Shown here in pieces: positions 14,643-27,012 of a DNA stretch of 27,012 nucleotides (positions within the stretch are counted from its first letter, which is position 1; every line of letters starts with the position of its first letter). The stretch covers positions 1 through 27,012 of the IMG/VR virus record IMGVR_UViG_3300017748_000106, one strand, 5' to 3'. The notes under the pieces were generated by a model. The model did no database searches. It had not been told where the DNA came from and saw only the letters and a list, made by a program, of their open reading frames with translations. The DNA is from a virus. Made by a program: the position numbers and the translations under genes.

Positions 14643-15251
14643 TTAAACTGTAGAATTATTCATTCTGTCTAGGTAGACGTCATCCGCTTTTGTAGTTTTA
14701 GCACCAAACAAAGGAGCTAAATTAGCTACACCCATAGCAGTGTCTGCTACACCTTGAATGCCTTGCTGTTGAGCAAGAACTGAGGCTTGTGCTGCCTCTT
14801 TTGCCCTTAACTCTTGGTCTTTGGCATAACCTAAATCCATTGCTTTTAAATCTTGATTAATAGCATCTTTAGCATCAGCCTTCATCTTGGCATTTTTTTC
14901 TAAATCTTTTTGCATTAACAACCTTGTTTTCTCTGTGTTTGCATCAGCCGTTTGCTGAACGAGGCCTACGCCGGCAGCTAAATTTCTAGGGTCACCTTCT
15001 TGAAGTGCTTGAATGTTTTGTTGTTGAGCCGCTAAGTTAGATTCCTTAGCAAATTCATAAGCTTCTCTTGAGACTTGAAGCCCTTCGTAAAAATTCTTTT
15101 CTGCTCTTTTTCTCGCCTCCGCCATGGCTTTCTTAGACTCTCTTTCTGCTTTTGCCGCTGCGTCTGCTTGTTTACGAGCTTGACTAAATGAGCCTATCGT
15201 TCCTGCCGCGGAAGACGCCACTCCTACTACTGCTGCTGTTGTAACTGCCAT
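14643..15251 (-). CDS. Internal virion protein (202 aa), T7 gp14 position
   Basis: Residues 2-22 (AVTTAAVVGVASSAAGTIGS) are a short small-residue hydrophobic helix able to enter a membrane. After it comes a long Ala/Lys/Glu/Gln-rich helical region to about residue 165 (KQADAAAKAERESKKAMAEA and onward), then a second Ala/Gly-rich segment (GVADTAMGVANLAPLFGA). This layout, length and position match T7 gp14 (196 aa), the first ejected core protein, which lodges in the outer membrane. Marine and flavobacterial podoviruses usually carry such an Ala-rich protein just before the larger internal proteins. It starts one base before the stop of the acetyltransferase gene and ends 9 bases before the next start, so all are co-transcribed. 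A chaperone or scaffold for the larger core proteins is a weaker alternative. Confidence 0.7.
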   Translation of the reverse strand: MAVTTAAVVGVASSAAGTIGSFSQARKQADAAAKAERESKKAMAEARKRAEKNFYEGLQVSREAYEFAKESNLAAQQQNIQALQEGDPRNLAAGVGLVQQTADANTEKTRLLMQKDLEKNAKMKADAKDAINQDLKAMDLGYAKDQELRAKEAAQASVLAQQQGIQGVADTAMGVANLAPLFGAKTTKADDVYLDRMNNSTV

Positions 15252-15252
15252 A

Positions 15253-15663
15253 TTATAATTTTTTAATCATTTCGGTTGAATAACTTGAAGCTTCTTCATA
15301 CCCCACTTTTTTGTAAACATCAATTAAAGGTTTATTTTTAATTAATGCATATACATATTTTTTATTTAAATTACGAGCTTGCTCAGTAATTGTTTGCACT
15401 AATAAAGCTAACGCTTTTTTTCTGTTTGCCCTATCCTTGTAATGAATATTTGATATAATCCAATCACACCAAACTGCCGTTGAATTTGTTGTGTACATAA
15501 ATCCAGCGCAAATAGGTATCTTACCATCGTACACCATGTATCCGCCTGTTCCGTTTTCGGGTAAAAAATCTTTAGAAGGAGGTGTCCATCTCCAGTCATT
15601 CCACCAATCCACTAATACGGCATCGTAGTCAGTTACTTTTAAAGGCTGTACATTTAATTTCAT
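15253..15663 (-). CDS. GNAT-like N-acetyltransferase
   Basis: A 136-residue protein resembling small GNAT acetyltransferases common in marine phages. The N-terminus has DWWNDWRWTPPSKDFLP, then the strand-rich GGYMVYDGKIPICAGFMY and WCDWIISN (beta-4 like), a basic turn KDRANRKKAL where acetyl-CoA pyrophosphate would bind, and the typical C-terminal YVYALIKNKPLIDVYKKVGY with the GY ending seen in many GNATs. The canonical Q/RxxGxG/A loop is not present, so cofactor binding is inferred from the overall pattern. The substrate is unknown and could be a virion protein, a host protein or a small molecule. It lies between tail-appendage and internal virion genes and has its own predicted promoter only 8 bases upstream, suggesting near-leaderless expression. 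Confidence 0.75.
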   Translation of the reverse strand: MKLNVQPLKVTDYDAVLVDWWNDWRWTPPSKDFLPENGTGGYMVYDGKIPICAGFMYTTNSTAVWCDWIISNIHYKDRANRKKALALLVQTITEQARNLNKKYVYALIKNKPLIDVYKKVGYEEASSYSTEMIKKL

Positions 15664-15686: not shown

Positions 15687-16526
15687 CTATGGATTGCTTT
15701 TCATCACACTACTCCCGACTGAAAATAGTTCTACTGGGCTAGTTGAGTCATTTTCTAATTTAAATTGAAGAAAATAACCTCTAGCCCCATGCGATTCTGC
15801 CGTAGCGTTTTTTATGTACATAATAAATTGCCCCACAACAGGTGTTGCTACCCCTGTTGAGTTGTCTATAACGATACTATTGGCATTGATAGCTGTAACT
15901 ATTCCGGCGAGCTGAGGAGCGCCTGTAGCTGTTGGAGGTGTTCCAGCTAAAGTAACAAAATACACGAAGTCACCTATGGATATTATTGAGCCTGTTGGCA
16001 CAGCAAAATCTATAGTAGTTGCAGCACCCACTACAGTAACTCCAGTAGCAGAACCTAAACCATTGGCAGATCTCATTTGCCAGTTTATCACAGCTGCATT
16101 AGTTCGTATAAAGCTAAACCACTCTCCTTCTTTTTGCTCAAAATAAGTTTCAAGCATACCACCTGGTGTTCCATCCGTTATATCTGTAGCCAGTTCAGTA
16201 CATGCCCATCTCGCTTGAGTGGTATCTACTACTGTAGTATTTGACTCGTATGATAAAGTTTTAAAGAGCTTGATACTTAATGTTGGCTCTGGATTAAATA
16301 CACTTGTAATTGTAGATGGACTAAATTGACCATAGTAAGTGTTTCGAGACTCATTGGTGTTGTGCCTAAAAAGATTGCCACCACTAAAAGAATAAAAATA
16401 ACTATTCATTCCTATCATATATTCAGGAAAAAAAGAATAAAATGAAGGCCACCCACCCTTTCCTTGAGCGTCAATGGTTAGCGGTGCTGAGTCTTGGTTG
16501 TACGATAAAGTGTATTCTGATGCCAT
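15687..16526 (-). CDS. Tail appendage/structural protein, GWPSFYSF family
   Basis: A 279-residue virion protein of a type I associate with flavobacterial and crAss-like podoviruses. Residues 24-58 contain GWPSFYSFFPEYMIGM and FSGGNLFRHNTNES, followed by NTYYGQFSPSTITSVF, KLFKTLSYES (88-95) and EGEWFSFIRTN (134-143). The C-terminus has HGARGYFLQFKLEND and SPVELFSVGSS. In related phages this domain is found in tail or nozzle-associated proteins, so an external tail component is likely. Residues about 171-241 form a beta-rich segment (SIISIGDFVYFV, IVTAINANSIVI, VVGQFIMYIKN) that recurs in two other virion proteins here. The gene follows the 339-aa tail protein after 10 bases and is followed by a promoter, so it ends the main tail gene block. 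Confidence 0.75.
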   Translation of the reverse strand: MASEYTLSYNQDSAPLTIDAQGKGGWPSFYSFFPEYMIGMNSYFYSFSGGNLFRHNTNESRNTYYGQFSPSTITSVFNPEPTLSIKLFKTLSYESNTTVVDTTQARWACTELATDITDGTPGGMLETYFEQKEGEWFSFIRTNAAVINWQMRSANGLGSATGVTVVGAATTIDFAVPTGSIISIGDFVYFVTLAGTPPTATGAPQLAGIVTAINANSIVIDNSTGVATPVVGQFIMYIKNATAESHGARGYFLQFKLENDSTSPVELFSVGSSVMKSNP

Positions 16527-16536
16527 AGTTTATTTT

Positions 16537-17556
16537 TTAAGTTGGGTCACAAGATGTAACATTAATTACAACACCGTTTCTAACAGTAATGACCTGATTG
16601 TTATCCATGACATAGCGTTGCTGTGTAGCAGTGTCATTTAAATATGTTGCTCCGGAAGAATCTGTAAAAACAAAATTACCTACAACTGGCCTTGTGTTGG
16701 TATCAACAGTAAAAGGTAATTGAGTTCCTGTTGCGTTTCTTGCAAAATAATATGTTACAGTTGCGTTAGAACAACCCAAGCCTGTCTGTGCGGGAGAACC
16801 TAAAAAACTAGGCAACGCAACTGGACACGCTAATTCAAGTCTCCAAAGAGTCCCGCACAAAGGTGCGAAAATTTGAAGATTTAAGGATGTGGGGGTAACA
16901 GAGTTTTTTGGTAAAACCAATGTAAACAAAGGGCTGGTAGCTGCCACAGTACCCACTTGGTTATTAACCACATTTGTATTTGTTGTAGTGCCTTGGTCAA
17001 CAAAAGCACCTGAAACATATAAAAAGTTTGATGGAGCGCCGCCGTTTGTTGGGCAAACCTCAGTTCCATCATAAGGGCTGAAATTTATTAGGTTAGCATT
17101 TTGATTTCCTACATATGTAGGTAATCCTGTACCTTGATTATTGAATCCAGCATAATCTACTGAAGTTCCAGCGCCGTCCAAGATAATAGTTCCGTCATTA
17201 CCTTGACAAGTTAACCTGTTATAGTGAGTTCCGTTCCATACCATATCCACTCCATCTGGTATACTAGCTCCCATGTAAAAATAAACAACTACCGCGCCAA
17301 CATCATTAGCCACATCAATGTCTACGCTAAAAATTCCACTATTGCTAATATTTAAATTTAAGCCAGAGCCACAAGGAACTAAACACGCCGAACAAGGCTG
17401 TGCATTAAGTAGTATACCATTTAGCTGTTGCCTAACAATTTGCCCCTGACTATAATATCCGTCTGGTGCTAGTGTTGTTAAGTCGCTACTGGTGTATAAT
17501 GCATAAGCTTGTGCAAATGTATCTCCATCAAAACAAAGAGTTTGTATTGTTGCCAT
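16537..17556 (-). CDS. Tail-associated protein with two GYY/NG/C-type segments (339 aa)
   Basis: The product is Thr/Asn/Gly-rich and beta-like, as expected for a tail spike, fibre or appendage. Residues 2-56 contain ALYTSSDLTTLAPDGYYSQG, then VRQQLNGIL and a closing CSAC. Residues 267-339 repeat the pattern as VVGNFVFTDSSGATYL, VITVRNGVVINVTSC. The same pattern ends the preceding 1604-aa nozzle protein. The middle region has several cysteines (CLVPCGSG, LTCQGND, APLCGTLW), unusual for a cytosol-assembled particle unless they are metal-bound or oxidised after release. The gene begins 10 bases after the nozzle stop and is probably expressed with it. A receptor-binding or nozzle-decorating role is inferred from composition and position; I do not recognise a named family for the full length. 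Confidence 0.65.
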   Translation of the reverse strand: MATIQTLCFDGDTFAQAYALYTSSDLTTLAPDGYYSQGQIVRQQLNGILLNAQPCSACLVPCGSGLNLNISNSGIFSVDIDVANDVGAVVVYFYMGASIPDGVDMVWNGTHYNRLTCQGNDGTIILDGAGTSVDYAGFNNQGTGLPTYVGNQNANLINFSPYDGTEVCPTNGGAPSNFLYVSGAFVDQGTTTNTNVVNNQVGTVAATSPLFTLVLPKNSVTPTSLNLQIFAPLCGTLWRLELACPVALPSFLGSPAQTGLGCSNATVTYYFARNATGTQLPFTVDTNTRPVVGNFVFTDSSGATYLNDTATQQRYVMDNNQVITVRNGVVINVTSCDPT

Positions 17557-17566
17557 AAATTAAATT

Positions 17567-20500
17567 TTAAGTACAAGTTACTAATTCTGTTACTATTCCG
17601 TTTGAGGAACATCTAATATATTTATTGGTTTCTGATTTGTAATATCCCGAAATTAAAGGTACAGCTGTACTGCTGAAGCAATTAGTCGAACTATAAACAA
17701 AGTCACCTACTGCTGGGAATGTTCCAGACCCAGTGTGGTAATAAGTTTGAGTTAGAGGTTGATTACAAATTATAGTAGGGTTGTTCTGCAGTGTGCTGCA
17801 ACTAAACGCCACACATGGAATTTCACATAAACAACAGGCATCTTCCGGGCTGGTTGCGTCATAACAAAATTGCTGACAAGAAGTTTTTCTGTAATCATAT
17901 ATTAAATATAAATACTGATTCCCACTTGGTAAAGACAAGTTAGTTACAGTTGCTTGATAAAGTCCAGTTGATGGGCTTACCACACTACTATTAGGTATAG
18001 TTGTTGCCGCAGCCAATAAAGATGCTATGTCAGGCTGAGTGTTTGCATATAATGTGTTTGATGATAAATATTTAAAATTATCGTCTGGGTATCCCCAATC
18101 ATAATCATCAAAGTTTATTTTATTAGACCTTATTGTTAAGTCGACCCCTGTATAAGGAAAAACACCTAAAGACCTAATTCCTACCTGAGCATCATAAAAC
18201 GAAGCTGTAAGTGGGGAATTTAAAAATTGAACTTGATCGCTGTCTACTGGGCTTATATTTACAGTATCTTCCCAGAAATATTCAGCATGAATAAATTTGT
18301 TTGAATCTTGAGTTGATGCAATAGCCACCTTAACAACCGTAATGGTTTCTTGAGTAGGGCAAGATAGCGTTACAAAGAAAGACGCAGCGGTTTGAGCTGT
18401 AATAGTTACAACCGCATTAACAGGAGTGTTAAGGCTTTTGTTCCATGTAAAGTTTCCAGACCCAGTAAGTGTTCCACTTGTGGTTGTAGTTCCATTCCAT
18501 AAAACACTGATTACAATAGACCCACTCGAAATAGAATAAGGAAACACCACATCGCCAATTACTTGTCCAAAATCAACCGTACTAACTGTACTAGTTCCAG
18601 CGGCAAGCCCTGTTCTATTTATTTGAGTTCCACAACTAATAACAAGTGGAGGTATAGGAACAGGTGTTCCGTTCATACCTAAAACATACTCATCCATATA
18701 AGGGTCATAGCCACCTAGTTTTTGAGTGTTTAAATTTTCAAAAAACCTATCTCTAAACCAAGAACGCATACCTTGGTCAGATACCACTGTCAACCTATCC
18801 GTATCGGGGGTTCTTCCGCTTAATTGAAGTACTGCACCTCTTTTTGTGTCGGTAAAATACATATCGTAACCATAAGCAACAAAACTTTCAGGATTAAAAC
18901 TTATGCCATATTCTTCAATTCTAGCAACTTGTTCTCCTAAAACCTCTGGAACTGAAGTTACAACACCTCCGCCAACAGCATCAGTAAGAATATTTTTACC
19001 AGCAAAAACATAAGTTATTCTATCTTCTTGTAAAGTTAAAATATCTGTTTTTCTGGCGTGTAGCACCTGAATAGGCCCAAACGAAGTTTCGCAATCTTTA
19101 AAATTAACTAACCCTAAATTAAATTCATTTAGATTGTTTGTCCCAGAGTTACTACTAAAAACTCCACTATAAGTAATACCTTCAAATCTATCAGCTTCTT
19201 TGTAGTCTTGGTTAGATACAGCTAAGGTTCTTTCACCTAACTGCATACTTTTTGCAGCCAGCTGATCTTTTATTCTGTAGCTTTCTACACCATTACCAAA
19301 GGTGTAACAGTCACTAAAGTTTAATGTTATAACAGCATCTTGAGTTGCTGTTTGGTTTTGGTCTCCGTTATCTATATCTGTTCCTGATTGGTGAAATCCA
19401 CTTGAATCTATATCATACATTTCACTAGCATCAAAGTAAAGTTCGGCGTTTGCATCTTCAGGTTCGGTTTCAAAAACCATTAAGGTGTTAGCCCTAAAAA
19501 CAACTATATCCATTGTTACACCAGCTTTTCTGTTATTACCAATTCTGTTACAACCTTTTAATCCAGTAGCAGTACCAAAATATAATGGCGAACTAGGATC
19601 TCCAGGAATTGCTTGACAAAACCCTAATTGAGCGCTAAAACCTAAACAGGGTAAATTGGTTGCAAATCCAAAAGGATTGCCTCCTATAAAAGGGCCAAGA
19701 TTAATAGGCGTACTAGGAGTAAAATATTGAGAGTTATAATTAGCAATGTTGTCGTCTTCATTCCACCCTTCATACCCCCCTGGCTCAGCAGTATTTATAT
19801 TTATATTATCGCCATCATACCATCTTTTTAAATCAGCGTAATCTCTTGTAGCGACAAAAGAAGCGCTCCACTCCCATCTTTTTTGCTCACAACTTCTTGA
19901 GCCTGCTCGTCTTCCGCTTGTAATACTCCACCTTATAATTGAGCCTCCGGGTATATCATAGTTTGTAGTAGCCCCGGTATCAGGGTCTGTTGTAAAACAT
20001 GGGTATCCAACATTTCTAAATGCCTGTTGGCTACATCCGCTTGTACTTCCGCTTCTAGCTTCTTGCTTTCCATATGCTATAACAGAATCATCCGGTATTA
20101 CAACATTAAAATTCTGATTTTTAATTTGCATATATAGGCCCGCTAATTGTTTCCCGTCTGTAAAACCCTCTTCTTGGTCTAAAAAATCACTACTTTCAGC
20201 TGTTATATCTAATACCTCGCATTTTTCCACAACTGACAAAGGCCCGTCTACATCCGCCTTTACTATTAAAGTCTCCCCTTTTGTAACTTTATTGGCATTG
20301 TCTCCTTCTATCTTAAAAAATATCATATTATCAGAAGGCCTAACATAATAAAAATTACTAAAAACAGTGTTATACTCCCCTAAACTAGGCTTTACTACAA
20401 ATTTATATTTGCTAGCCCAATAAGGAGCTGTACTGCTTAGTTGAACTTGAATTTTATTTGCATTCACAGAGTCGGCTGGATTTATATAAACTGTATTGTA

Positions 20501-22381
20501 TTCCGATACCAAAACCGTAGAGGCTCTAGCGTACTCGTCCATGTAAACAATTCCTGTTTCATAATCCCTGTTACTGTGAAGACTGGATGTATCTATATCT
20601 GATGTGAACTGTATTTCCCCCAGTACAAATCTAAAATACTCATATAGGTTTGTGGTAACAGGAGGAGTTTGAGTTTGATCCACATTTTGAAAATTCATTG
20701 CTAAAATTTGCAATTCAAAAGTGGTGCTACCTGGTGAAACCCCTGTCAACGCAATACCTTGTTGAGCTGTTGCGTCTGTTATACTGCTATTAAACTTGGT
20801 AAAAGTACAAGTAGTTGTAGGGGAGCTTAAAAAATTATTAAATAAATCTGTAAATGAAGTTCCTGCATCAGCTGTAGCCAAAGGGTTAAATCTCCCGTCA
20901 GCCAAAATCCCTGTACCTATTGCGTCTAAAAACAAAGAAGAAGATAAAAAGTCATAAGAGTTTTGGTAGTCTTGGTCTAGCGTTACACTAAACTGAATAT
21001 CAAAAACACCATTAGTAAACTCATCATTTGCCGTTCCGCAAGGAGCTAAAGCGGTGTCCCCGCCTAATTCAGCGTGTTCTATTCTAAAATTAAAACCTAA
21101 CGCAGCGCCTTGTTTTAACTTTCCGTCTATTTCTGCTAAATCAATAGTTATTTTAGAATTTGTTATACTTACCGATGATCCAGATAAAGTGTAAGCATCT
21201 CCATTACCTGGTAGTCCTCCTGGTAATTCAAGAAACTCTACGCTAAGGGGTAAATAGCTCGTGTTATAATCTAAAGATATGTTTGAGCCTTCAGCCGACC
21301 CTCTAGTAAAATTGTATCCATCTACATAATTACCATATAACAACCTATTGCCCATTATTGTTTGAGCCTTTGCAATCCTAGGAACATTGTCATAAAGCCT
21401 TAAAAGCTCGTCATTACCTATTACCGTATAAATTTTGCTGTTTGTAAAAGTATATGTTTTCTGAGTATCATCAGCCCATCCATAATCTTCTTTTTTAAAT
21501 CTTTCAATTACATAGATAACATTAGAGTTTGTGTCTTTATACAACAAATCAATTTCAGTAACTCTTTTGCTTCCAGTACTAAAAGTTATAACAGCCCCAT
21601 TAAACCTGTTAATCATACCACTGTTTAAGTAGTTTCTAGTGTCAAATGCAAAATCAGATGTAGCAAAGGCTGGAACAGTAAAAAGAGATGTTGCGCTATA
21701 GCCGCCGTTTAAATATCGATACCTATAAGCAAAACATATAAATCTTTCTCTTATGTAGTTTTCTTGCCCTGGCAAACTAACTAGCTGTACGCCAGGGACA
21801 GACAAAGGAATATTTGAGCCAACAGCGTCTTCAAATCCAGGGGGTTTTAAAATAACACTTATATCCTCTTCTTCTATTTGATCAACCAACCCTATAGGAT
21901 AAGGATAACTCTGAACCACATCTATGACTCGAGGAGGATTTTTGTCATCAGTAAAATATAAAAATTTTCCATCTACCAAATCAATACCGGTAATTAAAAA
22001 CTCCGGGTCAAAATTTAAAACAGTAGTAGAAATCACATGATATTGAACAATTAAATTTGTAGTATTAAAAGAAACTATCAAATCTAATTTTCCTGTTTTT
22101 ACAGGATTATTACTATCATGGACAAACCAGTAAATGGTTTCTCTTTGACCATCCTCATAAGCGCCTATGCACTGCGCCGCAGATGATAACGCTTGTCCTT
22201 GAAATTGCAAAGTTGTTAGCTGGTCATTTCCTTTAGAGTTTTCTACCGCACCAATCTCAGTTGTTTCAGTAGCCCCTAAACGGACATTCATTGCGTCTAT
22301 GTATTCTCCTGGCGGAAGAAGTCTTTCGTCAATAGACTTATTCATTCTTCCAGCCACAAAATTTGTAGTAGTTATTGGCAT
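17567..22381 (-). CDS. Tail nozzle/muzzle-type protein (1604 aa)
   Basis: The N-terminus NFVAGRMNKSIDERLLP...GEYIDAMNVRL...GAVENSKGN is typical of the nozzle/stabilisation protein of Bacteroidota podoviruses and parallels the opening of T7 gp12. The central region has strand-rich, propeller-like stretches, including FDPEFLITGIDLVDGKFLYF and, near residue 1170, EEYGISFNPESFVAYGYD, YFTDTKRGAVLQLSG, GMRSWFRDRF and KLGGYDPYMDEYVLG. Residues about 1245-1345 look like a separate beta-sandwich (GTLTGSGNFTWNKS). Residues 1499-1604 are cysteine-rich (SCQQFC, ACCLCEIPC) and end in the GYY...NG...C segment shared with the next gene. The role is the distal tail tube/nozzle that gates DNA. It is about twice as long as T7 gp12, with the extra mass largely C-terminal. 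It lies directly after the two ring/connector genes, as expected for head-to-tail gene order. Confidence 0.82.
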   Translation of the reverse strand: MPITTTNFVAGRMNKSIDERLLPPGEYIDAMNVRLGATETTEIGAVENSKGNDQLTTLQFQGQALSSAAQCIGAYEDGQRETIYWFVHDSNNPVKTGKLDLIVSFNTTNLIVQYHVISTTVLNFDPEFLITGIDLVDGKFLYFTDDKNPPRVIDVVQSYPYPIGLVDQIEEEDISVILKPPGFEDAVGSNIPLSVPGVQLVSLPGQENYIRERFICFAYRYRYLNGGYSATSLFTVPAFATSDFAFDTRNYLNSGMINRFNGAVITFSTGSKRVTEIDLLYKDTNSNVIYVIERFKKEDYGWADDTQKTYTFTNSKIYTVIGNDELLRLYDNVPRIAKAQTIMGNRLLYGNYVDGYNFTRGSAEGSNISLDYNTSYLPLSVEFLELPGGLPGNGDAYTLSGSSVSITNSKITIDLAEIDGKLKQGAALGFNFRIEHAELGGDTALAPCGTANDEFTNGVFDIQFSVTLDQDYQNSYDFLSSSLFLDAIGTGILADGRFNPLATADAGTSFTDLFNNFLSSPTTTCTFTKFNSSITDATAQQGIALTGVSPGSTTFELQILAMNFQNVDQTQTPPVTTNLYEYFRFVLGEIQFTSDIDTSSLHSNRDYETGIVYMDEYARASTVLVSEYNTVYINPADSVNANKIQVQLSSTAPYWASKYKFVVKPSLGEYNTVFSNFYYVRPSDNMIFFKIEGDNANKVTKGETLIVKADVDGPLSVVEKCEVLDITAESSDFLDQEEGFTDGKQLAGLYMQIKNQNFNVVIPDDSVIAYGKQEARSGSTSGCSQQAFRNVGYPCFTTDPDTGATTNYDIPGGSIIRWSITSGRRAGSRSCEQKRWEWSASFVATRDYADLKRWYDGDNININTAEPGGYEGWNEDDNIANYNSQYFTPSTPINLGPFIGGNPFGFATNLPCLGFSAQLGFCQAIPGDPSSPLYFGTATGLKGCNRIGNNRKAGVTMDIVVFRANTLMVFETEPEDANAELYFDASEMYDIDSSGFHQSGTDIDNGDQNQTATQDAVITLNFSDCYTFGNGVESYRIKDQLAAKSMQLGERTLAVSNQDYKEADRFEGITYSGVFSSNSGTNNLNEFNLGLVNFKDCETSFGPIQVLHARKTDILTLQEDRITYVFAGKNILTDAVGGGVVTSVPEVLGEQVARIEEYGISFNPESFVAYGYDMYFTDTKRGAVLQLSGRTPDTDRLTVVSDQGMRSWFRDRFFENLNTQKLGGYDPYMDEYVLGMNGTPVPIPPLVISCGTQINRTGLAAGTSTVSTVDFGQVIGDVVFPYSISSGSIVISVLWNGTTTTSGTLTGSGNFTWNKSLNTPVNAVVTITAQTAASFFVTLSCPTQETITVVKVAIASTQDSNKFIHAEYFWEDTVNISPVDSDQVQFLNSPLTASFYDAQVGIRSLGVFPYTGVDLTIRSNKINFDDYDWGYPDDNFKYLSSNTLYANTQPDIASLLAAATTIPNSSVVSPSTGLYQATVTNLSLPSGNQYLYLIYDYRKTSCQQFCYDATSPEDACCLCEIPCVAFSCSTLQNNPTIICNQPLTQTYYHTGSGTFPAVGDFVYSSTNCFSSTAVPLISGYYKSETNKYIRCSSNGIVTELVTCT

Positions 22382-23316: not shown

Positions 23317-24288
23317 TTATTGTTCGTCAATGTTTTCCATTGCTAGTTGCTCTTTTCCAAAATTGTATACATCTGCTTCTCTTATTTCAATTCCTATAAA
23401 TTGACATATTCTGTAAACCAAGGTAGGTTCATCTGACAAGGGTAATTCAAAATCTTGAAAATCTGCCTGCGTAGGATCAAATAAAGGCTCTCCCGCTTGT
23501 AATGTTGCATATGTCCAGTTAGGGTCAAGGGGATATCTCAAGTACTGAGAGTATATTTGACCAGGAGTGGTTATGGTTTCTGGATATACATTAATAGAAT
23601 TTCCTAATGCCCCAACTGTTGCATTTCCTAAAACATAAGCGGGAAAACCTAATGATGGTGTGGTTAGTGGAGATGAGTTGAGATAAAATATTTTACTTTG
23701 TGTGACTCTCTCTACTTCTACAATTCCAGCGCTTGACACAACAACATAAGAGTTTCCAATTGTAGCTGCTGAACCAAATATATCAACAGAAATAGCTAAC
23801 TGAGTATCAGAATTTATGCTTACCACATAAGCACTTTGACCAGCTGTTACGCTAGTGGCTGATGTAGAAGATACAAGTTGCCCAACCGATACAGTAGTTA
23901 AAAAAGTAGCGTTAGCATCAGTTAAAGTAAATGCTTGTGATTGAGTAGTTGTTCCGGTAGCAGTTGTAGTTGGATAATAATTAATTTTATTTATTAAATA
24001 ATAATTTGATGGTAAAGAATATAAATTAACGCCATTGTTAATCAAGGCTTGAGTAGCAGAAAAACTATCTATAACTTCTATTATTCCTTTTGTTATATCC
24101 GCATATCCAGAGCCAGATTGACGCATATTTTCTTGCGTTAATTGACTATTGTATTGGTAGAAATAATTCTCAAACATATCAAGCTGAGCTTGCTTAGCGT
24201 AGAGATTAAAATCTTGAGGCGAAATATATCCATAATTGTTTTTGTTGGCGATTGCCAATACGGTATTTCTTACATCATTAATAGGCAT
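23317..24288 (-). CDS. Head-tail connector/ring protein with beta-rich insert (323 aa)
   Basis: The N-terminus DVRNTVLAIANKNNYGYISP, followed by QDFNLYAKQAQLDMFENYFY, is a hallmark of one ring/connector family of Bacteroidota podoviruses, and a helical adaptor of the portal-tail junction is the expected role. Residues 117-186 form a beta-rich insert: LTDANATFLTTVSVGQLVSS, AYVVSINSDTQLAISVDIF, GNSYVVVSS. The insert resembles segments of the 184-aa and 279-aa virion proteins. The fold then resumes with IVEVERVTQSKIFYL, an IYSQYLRYPLDPNW motif, and LVYRICQFIGIEIREADVY at the C-terminus, typical of the parent family. The gene has its own promoter box about 15 bases upstream, directly after a strong terminator, so the tail block can be transcribed separately from the head block. 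Confidence 0.75.
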   Translation of the reverse strand: MPINDVRNTVLAIANKNNYGYISPQDFNLYAKQAQLDMFENYFYQYNSQLTQENMRQSGSGYADITKGIIEVIDSFSATQALINNGVNLYSLPSNYYLINKINYYPTTTATGTTTQSQAFTLTDANATFLTTVSVGQLVSSTSATSVTAGQSAYVVSINSDTQLAISVDIFGSAATIGNSYVVVSSAGIVEVERVTQSKIFYLNSSPLTTPSLGFPAYVLGNATVGALGNSINVYPETITTPGQIYSQYLRYPLDPNWTYATLQAGEPLFDPTQADFQDFELPLSDEPTLVYRICQFIGIEIREADVYNFGKEQLAMENIDEQ

Positions 24289-24303
24289 AATTTCTTCTTT
24301 TTA

Positions 24304-24323
24304 CAAAGATAGCAAAAAAAAAA
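24304..24323 (-). promoter_or_regulatory. Bacteroidota-type promoter box at the start of the tail block
   Basis: On the minus strand a ten-base T-tract (the terminator's own U-tract), then GC, then TATCTTTG (24304-24311), then TAA. The box is an exact TAnnTTTG. The ring-protein ATG follows 15 bases later, giving a very short leader. The place where a -33 TTG would sit is occupied by the terminator stem, and no TTG is seen. Confidence 0.6.
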
Positions 24324-24348
24324 GAGGCTACTTTTTTTTGTAGCCTCT
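24314..24348 (-). terminator. Intrinsic terminator after the 184-aa gene
   Basis: A perfect 9-bp stem, AGAGGCTAC with GTAGCCTCT, closes an eight-base A loop in the minus-strand RNA and is followed by a ten-base U-tract (24314-24323). No U-tract exists for the other direction. It lies 22 bases beyond the 184-aa gene stop. Confidence 0.9.
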
Positions 24349-24369
24349 CTTAGTTTTGATTAGTTAGTC

Positions 24370-24924
24370 TTAGACTTTAGCAATATCTAAGATTAAACTT
24401 GAAGGCAACCATTCGTCATATTTAACATAAGGCCAATGTTGTAGTAAAGATTCTGTTATTGAATCTTCAAATCCATCTCTCATAGCCTCATCACCTGCTG
24501 CTACTGCTGCATGAGTAATTTTAATTACGATGCCTGATGGCCCACAATACTGAACATTAACTTCACTATTTATTGGGTCAGCAGATGCATTTTCTACAAC
24601 TACTACTCCGTTAGTAGCAACTAATTGCTTAGAAGATACTGTAGCTGAATAGATAATATAATTTTTACCAGTACCTACACCATTTCCTTGCGCTGCTCCA
24701 ATAGCAACTAAAGAGAGTGTGTTTGCGTCCACAACACTTGCGACAGTATACATTCTGTCATCTGAAGTATCATGCACTACATCGCCAACATTAACTACGC
24801 CACCTGTAAAAGTAGCAGCGCCATCCTGTAGCTCAAGGTTTCCTGATTCGTCTACTGTTGTCGTTCCACTTGCGACTGATTTTTGTACTGGAACTTCAAC
24901 ATACTTTTGCATAGCACTATACAT
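24370..24924 (-). CDS. Small virion protein, paralog of its 93-aa neighbour with an insert (184 aa)
   Basis: The ends of this protein match the upstream 93-aa protein. MQKYVEVPV parallels MEKFLQIPV, KQLVATNGVVVVENASAD parallels KQILSILDVKLVEQASTS, and AGDEAMRDGFEDSITESLLQ parallels AGVETYRDEVQNAIVKALAT, followed in both by W, V, D and PS at similar spacing. Between the first two blocks lies a roughly 70-residue beta-rich insert at residues 27-95 (ATFTGGVVNVGDVVHDTSDD, YTVASVVDANTLSLVAIG, GKNYIIYSA) like those in the 323- and 279-aa virion proteins. Position after the capsid and head-associated genes suggests a capsid decoration or auxiliary protein, but that is inference. The start overlaps the neighbour's stop as TAATG, so the pair is translationally coupled. 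A terminator follows the stop. Confidence 0.65.
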   Translation of the reverse strand: MYSAMQKYVEVPVQKSVASGTTTVDESGNLELQDGAATFTGGVVNVGDVVHDTSDDRMYTVASVVDANTLSLVAIGAAQGNGVGTGKNYIIYSATVSSKQLVATNGVVVVENASADPINSEVNVQYCGPSGIVIKITHAAVAAGDEAMRDGFEDSITESLLQHWPYVKYDEWLPSSLILDIAKV

Positions 24925-25205
24925 TAGGCTATAGATATACCAGTAACGGCATTGCTTGGAATGTAGTCCACAGCCACATTAGTCCACCCTGTCGCAAGAG
25001 CTTTAACGATAGCATTTTGAACTTCATCTCTATAAGTCTCTACTCCTGCGTCTAAAGCATCAGTATAGGTTATAGTTGCAACTTTTCCTGAGCCATAAGA
25101 CAAAGAAACCGTAGAAGTAGAAGCTTGTTCTACTAATTTAACATCCAGAATTGACAAAATTTGTTTTTGTTCATTTGTAACTGGAATTTGTAAGAATTTT
25201 TCCAT
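24924..25205 (-). CDS. Small virion protein, short paralog of the 184-aa neighbour (93 aa)
   Basis: A compact 93-residue alpha/beta protein with MEKFLQIPVTNEQKQIL, VKLVEQASTSTVSLSYG, the helix YRDEVQNAIVKALATGW and the C-terminal strand-like VDYIPSNAVTGISIA. The same scaffold, with an extra domain, makes up the next gene. Small paralogous proteins in this place, downstream of the capsid gene, are common in Bacteroidota podoviruses and may decorate or stabilise the capsid; crAss-like phages often carry two IHF-type proteins nearby, but I see no HU/IHF signature here. It is the first gene after a terminator-promoter pair, so expression can be set apart from the capsid gene. The leader from the predicted promoter is about 30 bases and A/T-rich. 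Confidence 0.65.
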   Translation of the reverse strand: MEKFLQIPVTNEQKQILSILDVKLVEQASTSTVSLSYGSGKVATITYTDALDAGVETYRDEVQNAIVKALATGWTNVAVDYIPSNAVTGISIA

Positions 25206-26130: not shown

Positions 26131-27012
26131 TTATGCATCTTGAAATAAGAAGAAGTTGTTTGCACCTAAAGTACATACAGCTCTTTCGCTCAAGAAGTTA
26201 ACCTCCATTGCATCAAGATCATTAGTTCTTGCACCACCAGCAGAACCGGTAATCCAAGTTTTGTAACGTCTGTCTTCAGTCTCAGAAGCTCTGTAACGAA
26301 CATGAAGGAAAGGTCGCTTAGCGTTCTTACCTAAAATTTGGTCGTATACAGTTGTAGAACCAGCTGGAACTAAAAGTCCATTGATTGCACCTGCTTCAAG
26401 ACCTCCACGCATTGTTGGGTCGTTTAAGTATTTCCAGTCAGACTTGTAAAAGTCATATCCTCTACGGAATCCTGTAAATCCTAAATTAAGAGCCATGTCC
26501 TTATCGTTGTCAAATAAACCATAAGAAGTACCACCTGCTCCGTAAGAGTTTTGTGATGCTAACATATCGTCAATATCAAACGAGAATTGTCTGTTTACGA
26601 AAATTACATTTTCTTCAATAGCTCCTTGCTTATCAAGTCTTTGAATAACATTATCAAACTGAGCTAATGCAACTGGGTTTCCACCACCGAATACATTTCC
26701 TCTTGTTGATACGCTAAAGAAAATACCATCAGAACCAGAAAGGTTAGCCGCACCTGCACCCACACCTACTCCTTGTAGGAAGTCTGCTGCACCTGATGCC
26801 GCCTCAGCAGGAACTGCTTCAACCATCGCTGTTTCTAAGTAATCTTCAAATCTTAATCTTGTGTCGTGTTCAGACTTTAAATACCATAAGTATCCGCTTA
26901 CGCCATCCTCACCTGTAACTTCAATCCATCCAATCTGAGCCATATCAGAACCAGAAACAGTGTATTTGTCTTTGATAATAATTGGCTTGTTGTCAAAAAT
27001 AAAGTCATCAGC
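26131..27012 (-). CDS. Major capsid protein, C-terminal part, cut by right edge
   Basis: The frame stays open to base 27012, so the 5' end is outside the window; the Met at 26943 is internal, because the 23 preceding codons are open and read into it (YTVSGSDMAQIGWIEV). The visible 293 residues contain GYLWYLKSEHDTRLRFEDYL, a Gly/Ala-rich loop, FDNVIQRLDKQGAIEENVIF, SYGAGGTSYGLFDNDKDMAL, FYKSDWKYLNDPTMRGG, TTVYDQILGKNAKRPFLHVR and the final LDAMEVNFLSERAVCTLGAN. This arrangement is the major capsid protein pattern I know from Bacteroidota podoviruses; it would adopt the HK97 fold, though the fold itself cannot be seen. It heads the leftward virion operon in this window and is followed by a terminator, consistent with the excess of capsid protein needed. 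Assignment rests on recalled family pattern and position. Confidence 0.85.
   Translation of the reverse strand, partial: ADDFIFDNKPIIIKDKYTVSGSDMAQIGWIEVTGEDGVSGYLWYLKSEHDTRLRFEDYLETAMVEAVPAEAASGAADFLQGVGVGAGAANLSGSDGIFFSVSTRGNVFGGGNPVALAQFDNVIQRLDKQGAIEENVIFVNRQFSFDIDDMLASQNSYGAGGTSYGLFDNDKDMALNLGFTGFRRGYDFYKSDWKYLNDPTMRGGLEAGAINGLLVPAGSTTVYDQILGKNAKRPFLHVRYRASETEDRRYKTWITGSAGGARTNDLDAMEVNFLSERAVCTLGANNFFLFQDA

Follow-up and report, generated by a model that had tools for sequence, protein, structure and literature searches.

Does the same small domain sit in several virion proteins of one phage and, if so, what might it do there? The question is raised by a window (the whole stretch of DNA analysed here) of 27,012 bases, the IMG/VR virus record IMGVR_UViG_3300017748_000106, which holds the block of virion genes of a short-tailed phage related to crassviruses; the hosts of its nearest cultured phages are Flavobacterium, Cellulophaga, Maribacter and Tenacibaculum. 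A sequence-only reading had proposed that one mobile beta-barrel was inserted into three of its proteins, all encoded on the minus strand: residues 27-95 of a 184-aa protein (24640-24846), residues 117-186 of a 323-aa protein (23731-23940) and residues 171-241 of a 279-aa protein (15804-16016). These coordinates are exact. The follow-up revealed a domain of about 75 residues that is inserted in several unrelated virion proteins of one marine clade of such phages; by computation, these barrels are homologous between host proteins, are true insertions with empty sites in relatives, occur in tandem copies and cluster by host protein and site.

The 184-aa protein and its neighbourhood

The order of the genes in the block is: the end of the major capsid gene, a 254-aa gene in the scaffold position, the 93-aa and 184-aa genes, the 323-aa ring gene, a 307-aa gene (a second structural protein, matching phrog_13977), the muzzle gene, a 339-aa gene and the 279-aa gene. 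The features of its first part are the following:

26131-26943, cut by the contig end: major capsid protein, C-terminal part (270-aa ORF), matching positions 197-446 of 452 of phrog_13704
24924..25205, minus strand: 93-aa protein, the host fold without a barrel (empty-site paralogue; BLASTP, relatives)
24370..24924, minus strand: 184-aa protein, paralogue of its 93-aa neighbour with one inserted barrel (BLASTP, AlphaFold)
24634..24873, minus strand: inserted barrel of the 184-aa protein, about residues 18-97 (joined to the ring insert by HMM and HHalign)

BLASTP aligned residues 99-182 of the 184-aa protein with the 93-aa protein at 34% identity (E 4e-7), and a second, short N-terminal match covered residues 5-19. 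On this comparison the 184-aa protein is a 93-aa-type host protein with a barrel segment between its two halves. The AlphaFold model of the 184-aa protein (pLDDT 87.3, pTM 0.80) shows the segment as a six-stranded barrel, and the VIA-align rows cover residues 15-97 of the model. The same locus in relatives forms a stepwise series, in which products of 92-109 aa hold no copy of the barrel, those of 182-186 aa one, those of 277-283 aa two and those of 316-318 aa three. Moreover, the BFVD entry A0A516LGE6, unnamed, matched the 184-aa model by structure only (TM-score 0.87-0.91, 27% identity), and the same collection also holds unnamed entries of 91-94 aa, the size of the barrel-less form (e.g. 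A0A516LJI9); these structure matches show that the 184-aa and 93-aa proteins occur in other viral sequences. The assignment of the 184-aa protein to the capsid, made from the letters alone, found no support: no library names this protein, and its gene is placed in the stretch from the scaffold-position gene to the ring gene.

Two observations concern the host part itself. In two relatives (L104, 5614-6414, and L107, 2-682) the 184-type protein has an extra and different C-terminal insertion, GTGYTVGDVVTVTGG-like, Gly-rich and about 80 aa long, near the end of the host part, which suggests that this host takes up unrelated inserts too. In five others (L028, L029, L026, L007 and L125) two tandem barrel-less 93-type genes (97-101 and 113-115 aa) stand before a two-barrel gene, between the scaffold-position gene and the ring gene; such barrel-less pairs suggest that the 93-type gene was duplicated more than once.

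One barrel family in several host proteins

The further features needed here are those of the ring and of the muzzle:

23317..24288, minus strand: 323-aa protein, assigned to the tail-barrel ring family phrog_14543 (E 1.2e-41), with one inserted barrel
23728..23967, minus strand: inserted barrel of the ring protein, about residues 108-187 (profile matches, homologue alignment)
17567..22381, minus strand: 1604-aa muzzle protein (crAss_MUZ), without a barrel

The match of the 323-aa protein to phrog_14543 falls into two stretches flanking the insert, and its gene precedes that of the muzzle, in synteny with MW202828, elemoA and phi13:2. Judging from the family match outside the insert and from gene position, the 323-aa host is a crassvirus-type tail ring protein; in phi13:2, R3/R4 has been described as the sole ring gene. 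The ring proteins of four cultured or complete phages, elemoA (240 aa), MW202828 (256), Panino (230) and phi13:2 (234), align with it from end to end, with a gap at the barrel segment, and a further 79 metagenomic ring ORFs of a second scan, all complete and of 230-270 aa, have no barrel. Within the window's own clade all the complete ring genes of the first scans carry it. No PDB sequence was found to match the ring family.

In relatives, an iterated profile placed barrels at three sites of the muzzle (about residues 570, 1015 and 1300), all of which are empty in the muzzles of the window, MW202828 and phi13:2. Whole virus records, searched with profiles, then added a fifth host (counting first the 184-type, ring and muzzle proteins and, by fold only, the 279-aa protein), a small MAYPK-type protein that carries the barrel in relatives: proteins of 88-103 aa have none, those of about 156-190 aa one and those of 240-270 aa two. 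Among solved structures, this host resembles only head-spike bases, weakly and mainly in its C-terminal half: 8cjz (E 0.03), which we take to be the head-spike base of phage R4C, and 6tb9 (E 0.04-0.16), the spike base of RcGTA. The PHROGs label its family as tail fibre protein. The complete genome MW202828 harbors a barrel in this fifth host and none in its ring or muzzle, which argues that the acquisitions were separate.

The barrels of ring, 184-type, muzzle and fifth-host proteins belong to one homologous family, since the profiles of the different host classes find each other. Indeed, an HMM of ring segments alone retrieved the 184-aa segment of the window (E 3.9e-10), the 184-type HMM retrieved ring proteins of relatives (E about 1e-6), and HHalign joined the 184-type and ring barrels at 97% (E 4.8e-11); leaving out one host at a time, the ring, muzzle and fifth-host barrels were each joined at 99% (E 1e-20 to 1e-23). 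A barrel shared between virion proteins is in this way supported for two of the three proteins originally named and extends to further hosts in relatives (muzzle and spike-base-like protein). The domain has a conserved turn, 'D-x-x-A-x-F ... V-x-V-G-D-x-V', and from 0 to 3 copies are found per host protein. Between single sequences the likeness is weak, Smith-Waterman comparisons against shuffles giving p values of 0.0035 (184/323), 0.04 (184/279) and 0.54 (323/279). A regular expression written from the originally proposed motif matched exactly the three proteins, with 0 matches expected in shuffles; this counts for little because the expression was built from the same three proteins and, among the 86 homologues of the 279-aa protein, only 6 contain it.

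Neither Pfam nor PHROGs gave a family for the barrel (best E 0.0096, for one member); 19 barrels run against Pfam matched no Ig-like family at E 0.1 or better and did not match the BACON profile. A consensus barrel found nothing in cultured phages by tblastn at E 1e-3, and the barrel profile reached PDB sequences at E 0.17 or worse only. A scan of bacterial genomes returned one contig, in a Flavobacteriaceae MAG, and the open-licence papers searched contained no description of the domain.

Among the matches listed by VIA-align, the best ones of the 184-aa model were six-stranded barrels, with a best Z of 8.4, which is middling (another fold beyond those listed is possible). They include barrels of many functions, e.g. 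that of F1-ATPase. Barrels of the F1/V-ATPase N-terminal type gave Z of about 7.0 over 67-72 residues with the 184-aa model and Z 7.9 over 78 residues with the 279-aa model, values of a middling size that is common. Foldseek also returned endosialidases (E 2.8e-4 to 0.014); these were discounted as a sign of glycan binding, since their TM-scores were 0.25-0.30 with an rmsd of 14 and none appeared within the top 50 of VIA-align.

Inheritance of the barrel and its possible role

The tree of 81 barrels (92 columns, with many forks unresolved) grouped them by host protein and site, with 10 label changes where shuffles needed 40. Ring barrels form essentially one group and muzzle barrels one group per site, while the tandem copies 1, 2 and 3 of the 184-aa locus fall apart from each other, a pattern that points to ancient duplications or to independent arrivals. 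The grouping of barrels by host and site indicates that their movement was old and occasional. According to the tree, the mobility first proposed would hold as rare transfer followed by inheritance, not as a present-day process.

Concerning the pace of change, in the ring protein the barrel has a median identity of 66% and the host part 83%, with dN/dS of 0.24 and 0.10, respectively; in the 184-aa protein the barrel (0.16) is no faster than its host (0.21). All these values are purifying, far under 1, and give no hint of an arms race.

In our opinion, with a probability of roughly one half, the best explanation is that the barrel is an accessory surface module, whose most likely benefit might be weak multivalent adhesion to cell-surface polysaccharide or exopolysaccharide. 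According to this model, each insertion site would be a loop or hairpin at the surface, with its two ends close to each other, so that each host protein could tolerate a barrel; by analogy with the ring and muzzle of phicrAss001 and with the RcGTA spike bases, the barrel would be located outside the particle. The hosts would be oligomeric and a single insertion would therefore display many copies (phicrAss001 has 12 ring subunits and 6 muzzle subunits, and RcGTA spike bases are pentameric). The many exposed barrels might then adhere weakly and multivalently to cell-surface sugars, as has been proposed for the Ig-like and BACON domains of phages. The phicrAss001 muzzle has been reported to vary by insertions able to affect its surface. 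The looser constraint on the ring barrel, compared with its host part, speaks for this explanation; against it stand the rate of the 184-aa barrel, no higher than that of its host, the dN/dS values without a hint of an arms race, and the middling structure matches, spread over many functions.

The same purifying rates would fit a structural brace, i.e. inserted barrels that touch adjacent subunits or proteins and make head, ring and muzzle more rigid while binding no host molecule, similarly to the capsid I-domains of crassvirus and P22. Core residues, F, L and G for example, make up most of the conserved positions of the barrel, and in phicrAss001 the I-domain barrels of the capsid and an auxiliary protein do form a surface lattice. 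However, a brace that was needed should hardly vary between 0 and 3 copies at one locus among relatives, many of which have no barrel at any site, and we regard this possibility as rather unlikely. Less probable still, in our view, is a near-neutral accretion, in which an easily folded domain would have been recombined into tolerant loops and duplicated in tandem with no selected role; the scattered distribution and copy number and the several unrelated hosts might be explained in this way, but not so readily the purifying selection and the fact that, within a broad clade, no complete ring gene of the first scans has lost the barrel.

Ig-like and BACON domains are the main known cases of promiscuous accessory domains in phages. 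The behaviour of the barrel is of this known kind, which also includes the I-domains, while its sequence has no counterpart among the families of Pfam and PHROGs. The Ig-like domains of tailed phages (mentioned in PMC10684548 and PMC13370021, the former also for domain mosaicism) are, like the barrel, small and all-beta, found within one phage group in structural proteins that are unrelated to each other, variable in copy number and borne by exposed hosts, an exposure that for the barrel is presumed; the barrel differs in its fold, predicted to be a six-stranded barrel and probably not an Ig sandwich, in matching no Ig profile and in being inserted internally, in tail ring, muzzle and spike-base-like protein. 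The BACON repeats of crAss-like gut phages (PMC6949934) share with it the tandem arrangement of a beta domain, the variable copy number, the link to tail proteins and the occurrence in phages of Bacteroidota, whereas the barrel is of another sequence family (no Pfam match) and is spread over several hosts, with carbohydrate binding being putative. The I-domain of P22 and crassvirus major capsid proteins (PMC10172136) is likewise a small beta-barrel placed in a loop of a core protein of the virion, but has one host family and defined contacts with the auxiliary protein, in contrast to the several hosts of the barrel. Finally, the OB-like insertion domains of Dit in RcGTA and T5 tails (PMC10276861), compared with the barrel by description only, are small barrel-like domains protruding from a tail protein; they are proposed sugar binders and have a single host protein, Dit.

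The barrel would represent a second, unnamed promiscuous barrel family, present in core tail parts (ring and muzzle) and in a spike-base-like protein. Its clean empty sites and the series of 0, 1, 2 and 3 copies provide a natural series for testing the function of accessory domains. Two of the hosts have published barrel-less relatives in cultured flavobacterial phages and MW202828 has the barrel in one host only, so that natural proteins with an empty site are available as a comparison for the added domain.

The barrel of the muzzle C-terminal protein

The third protein of the original proposal comprises two features:

15687..16526, minus strand: 279-aa muzzle C-terminal protein (crAss_MUZ_C, E 1.4e-11)
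15804..16079, minus strand: ancestral barrel of this protein, residues 150-241 (AlphaFold, all homologues examined)

The 279-aa protein passes the curated cut-off of PF25729 crAss_MUZ_C (45.1 bits; cut-off 27), and no PDB sequence was found to match its family. The muzzle of the window is split, its C-terminal part being this separate gene (15687-16526), two genes downstream of 17567-22381; in elemoA the 279-aa family is fused to the muzzle C-terminus (residues 1238-1471; L189, 9579-13991). An alignment of metagenomic homologues (86 distinct, of which 37 representatives were looked at) contains the segment, and so do the proteins of Panino, phi13:2, MW202828 and elemoA. Because every homologue examined has it, the segment is a fixed domain and not an insert. 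The claim that the barrel is inserted, with the host pattern resuming on both sides, consequently stands for the 184-aa protein and the ring and fails for the 279-aa protein.

The beta-barrel fold, in turn, is supported by the models of both the 184-aa and the 279-aa protein, the latter predicted with pLDDT of about 90 or more over residues 160-240 and poorly in the remainder. The two models agree in the order of their strands and in where the Gly-Asp turn falls, and thus the comparison of topologies brought up no difference that would set the segments apart. Both models also align to residues 389-472 of 24qj (Z 8.1 and 7.4) and to near-identical residues of 3vr5_F (1-78 and 1-75).

As for sequence, HHalign scored the 279-aa segment against all barrels at 38% (E 3.3e-4), the top of 55 windows (next best 8%; reversed control 0.5%), and, by host class, at 43% with the fifth host, 31% with the 184 locus, 16% with the muzzle and <1% with the ring; iterated HMMs of the barrel never found it. 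The proposal of one segment in three proteins is borne out for the 184-aa and 323-aa proteins, and the profile searches that joined these two and added new hosts left the 279-aa segment borderline. A common descent of its barrel with the inserts is possible on this borderline evidence.

It is very improbable that the barrel was inserted in all three proteins, the 279-aa segment being just another mobile copy: the agreement of the two models and the scores with three of the four host-class profiles speak for it, but no homologue has the segment as an insertion, the ring profile and the iterated HMMs miss it, and small barrels with a Gly-Asp turn are common. The reverse relation, with this muzzle-tip barrel as the ancestor of the mobile copies, reused on ring, muzzle body and head vertices for attachment to a shared glycan, is also quite doubtful, though less so; if it were true, head and tail would bind the same glycan and the particle would stay attached in any orientation on its way through the capsule.

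Other genes of this tail block can be mentioned. A 136-aa acetyltransferase-like gene (15253-15663) adjoins the 279-aa gene, and MW202828 has an annotated acetyltransferase at the equivalent place. The 202-aa protein (14643-15251) weakly matches internal virion proteins of the T7 gp14 type (PHROG E 3e-6 and 0.001; Pfam E 0.0012, under the cut-off of that profile). The 339-aa protein (16537-17556), between muzzle and 279-aa gene, has no library match; its counterparts in relatives are between about 150 and 660 aa long, fragments among them, and this variation in length suggests that it, too, may consist of variable modules.
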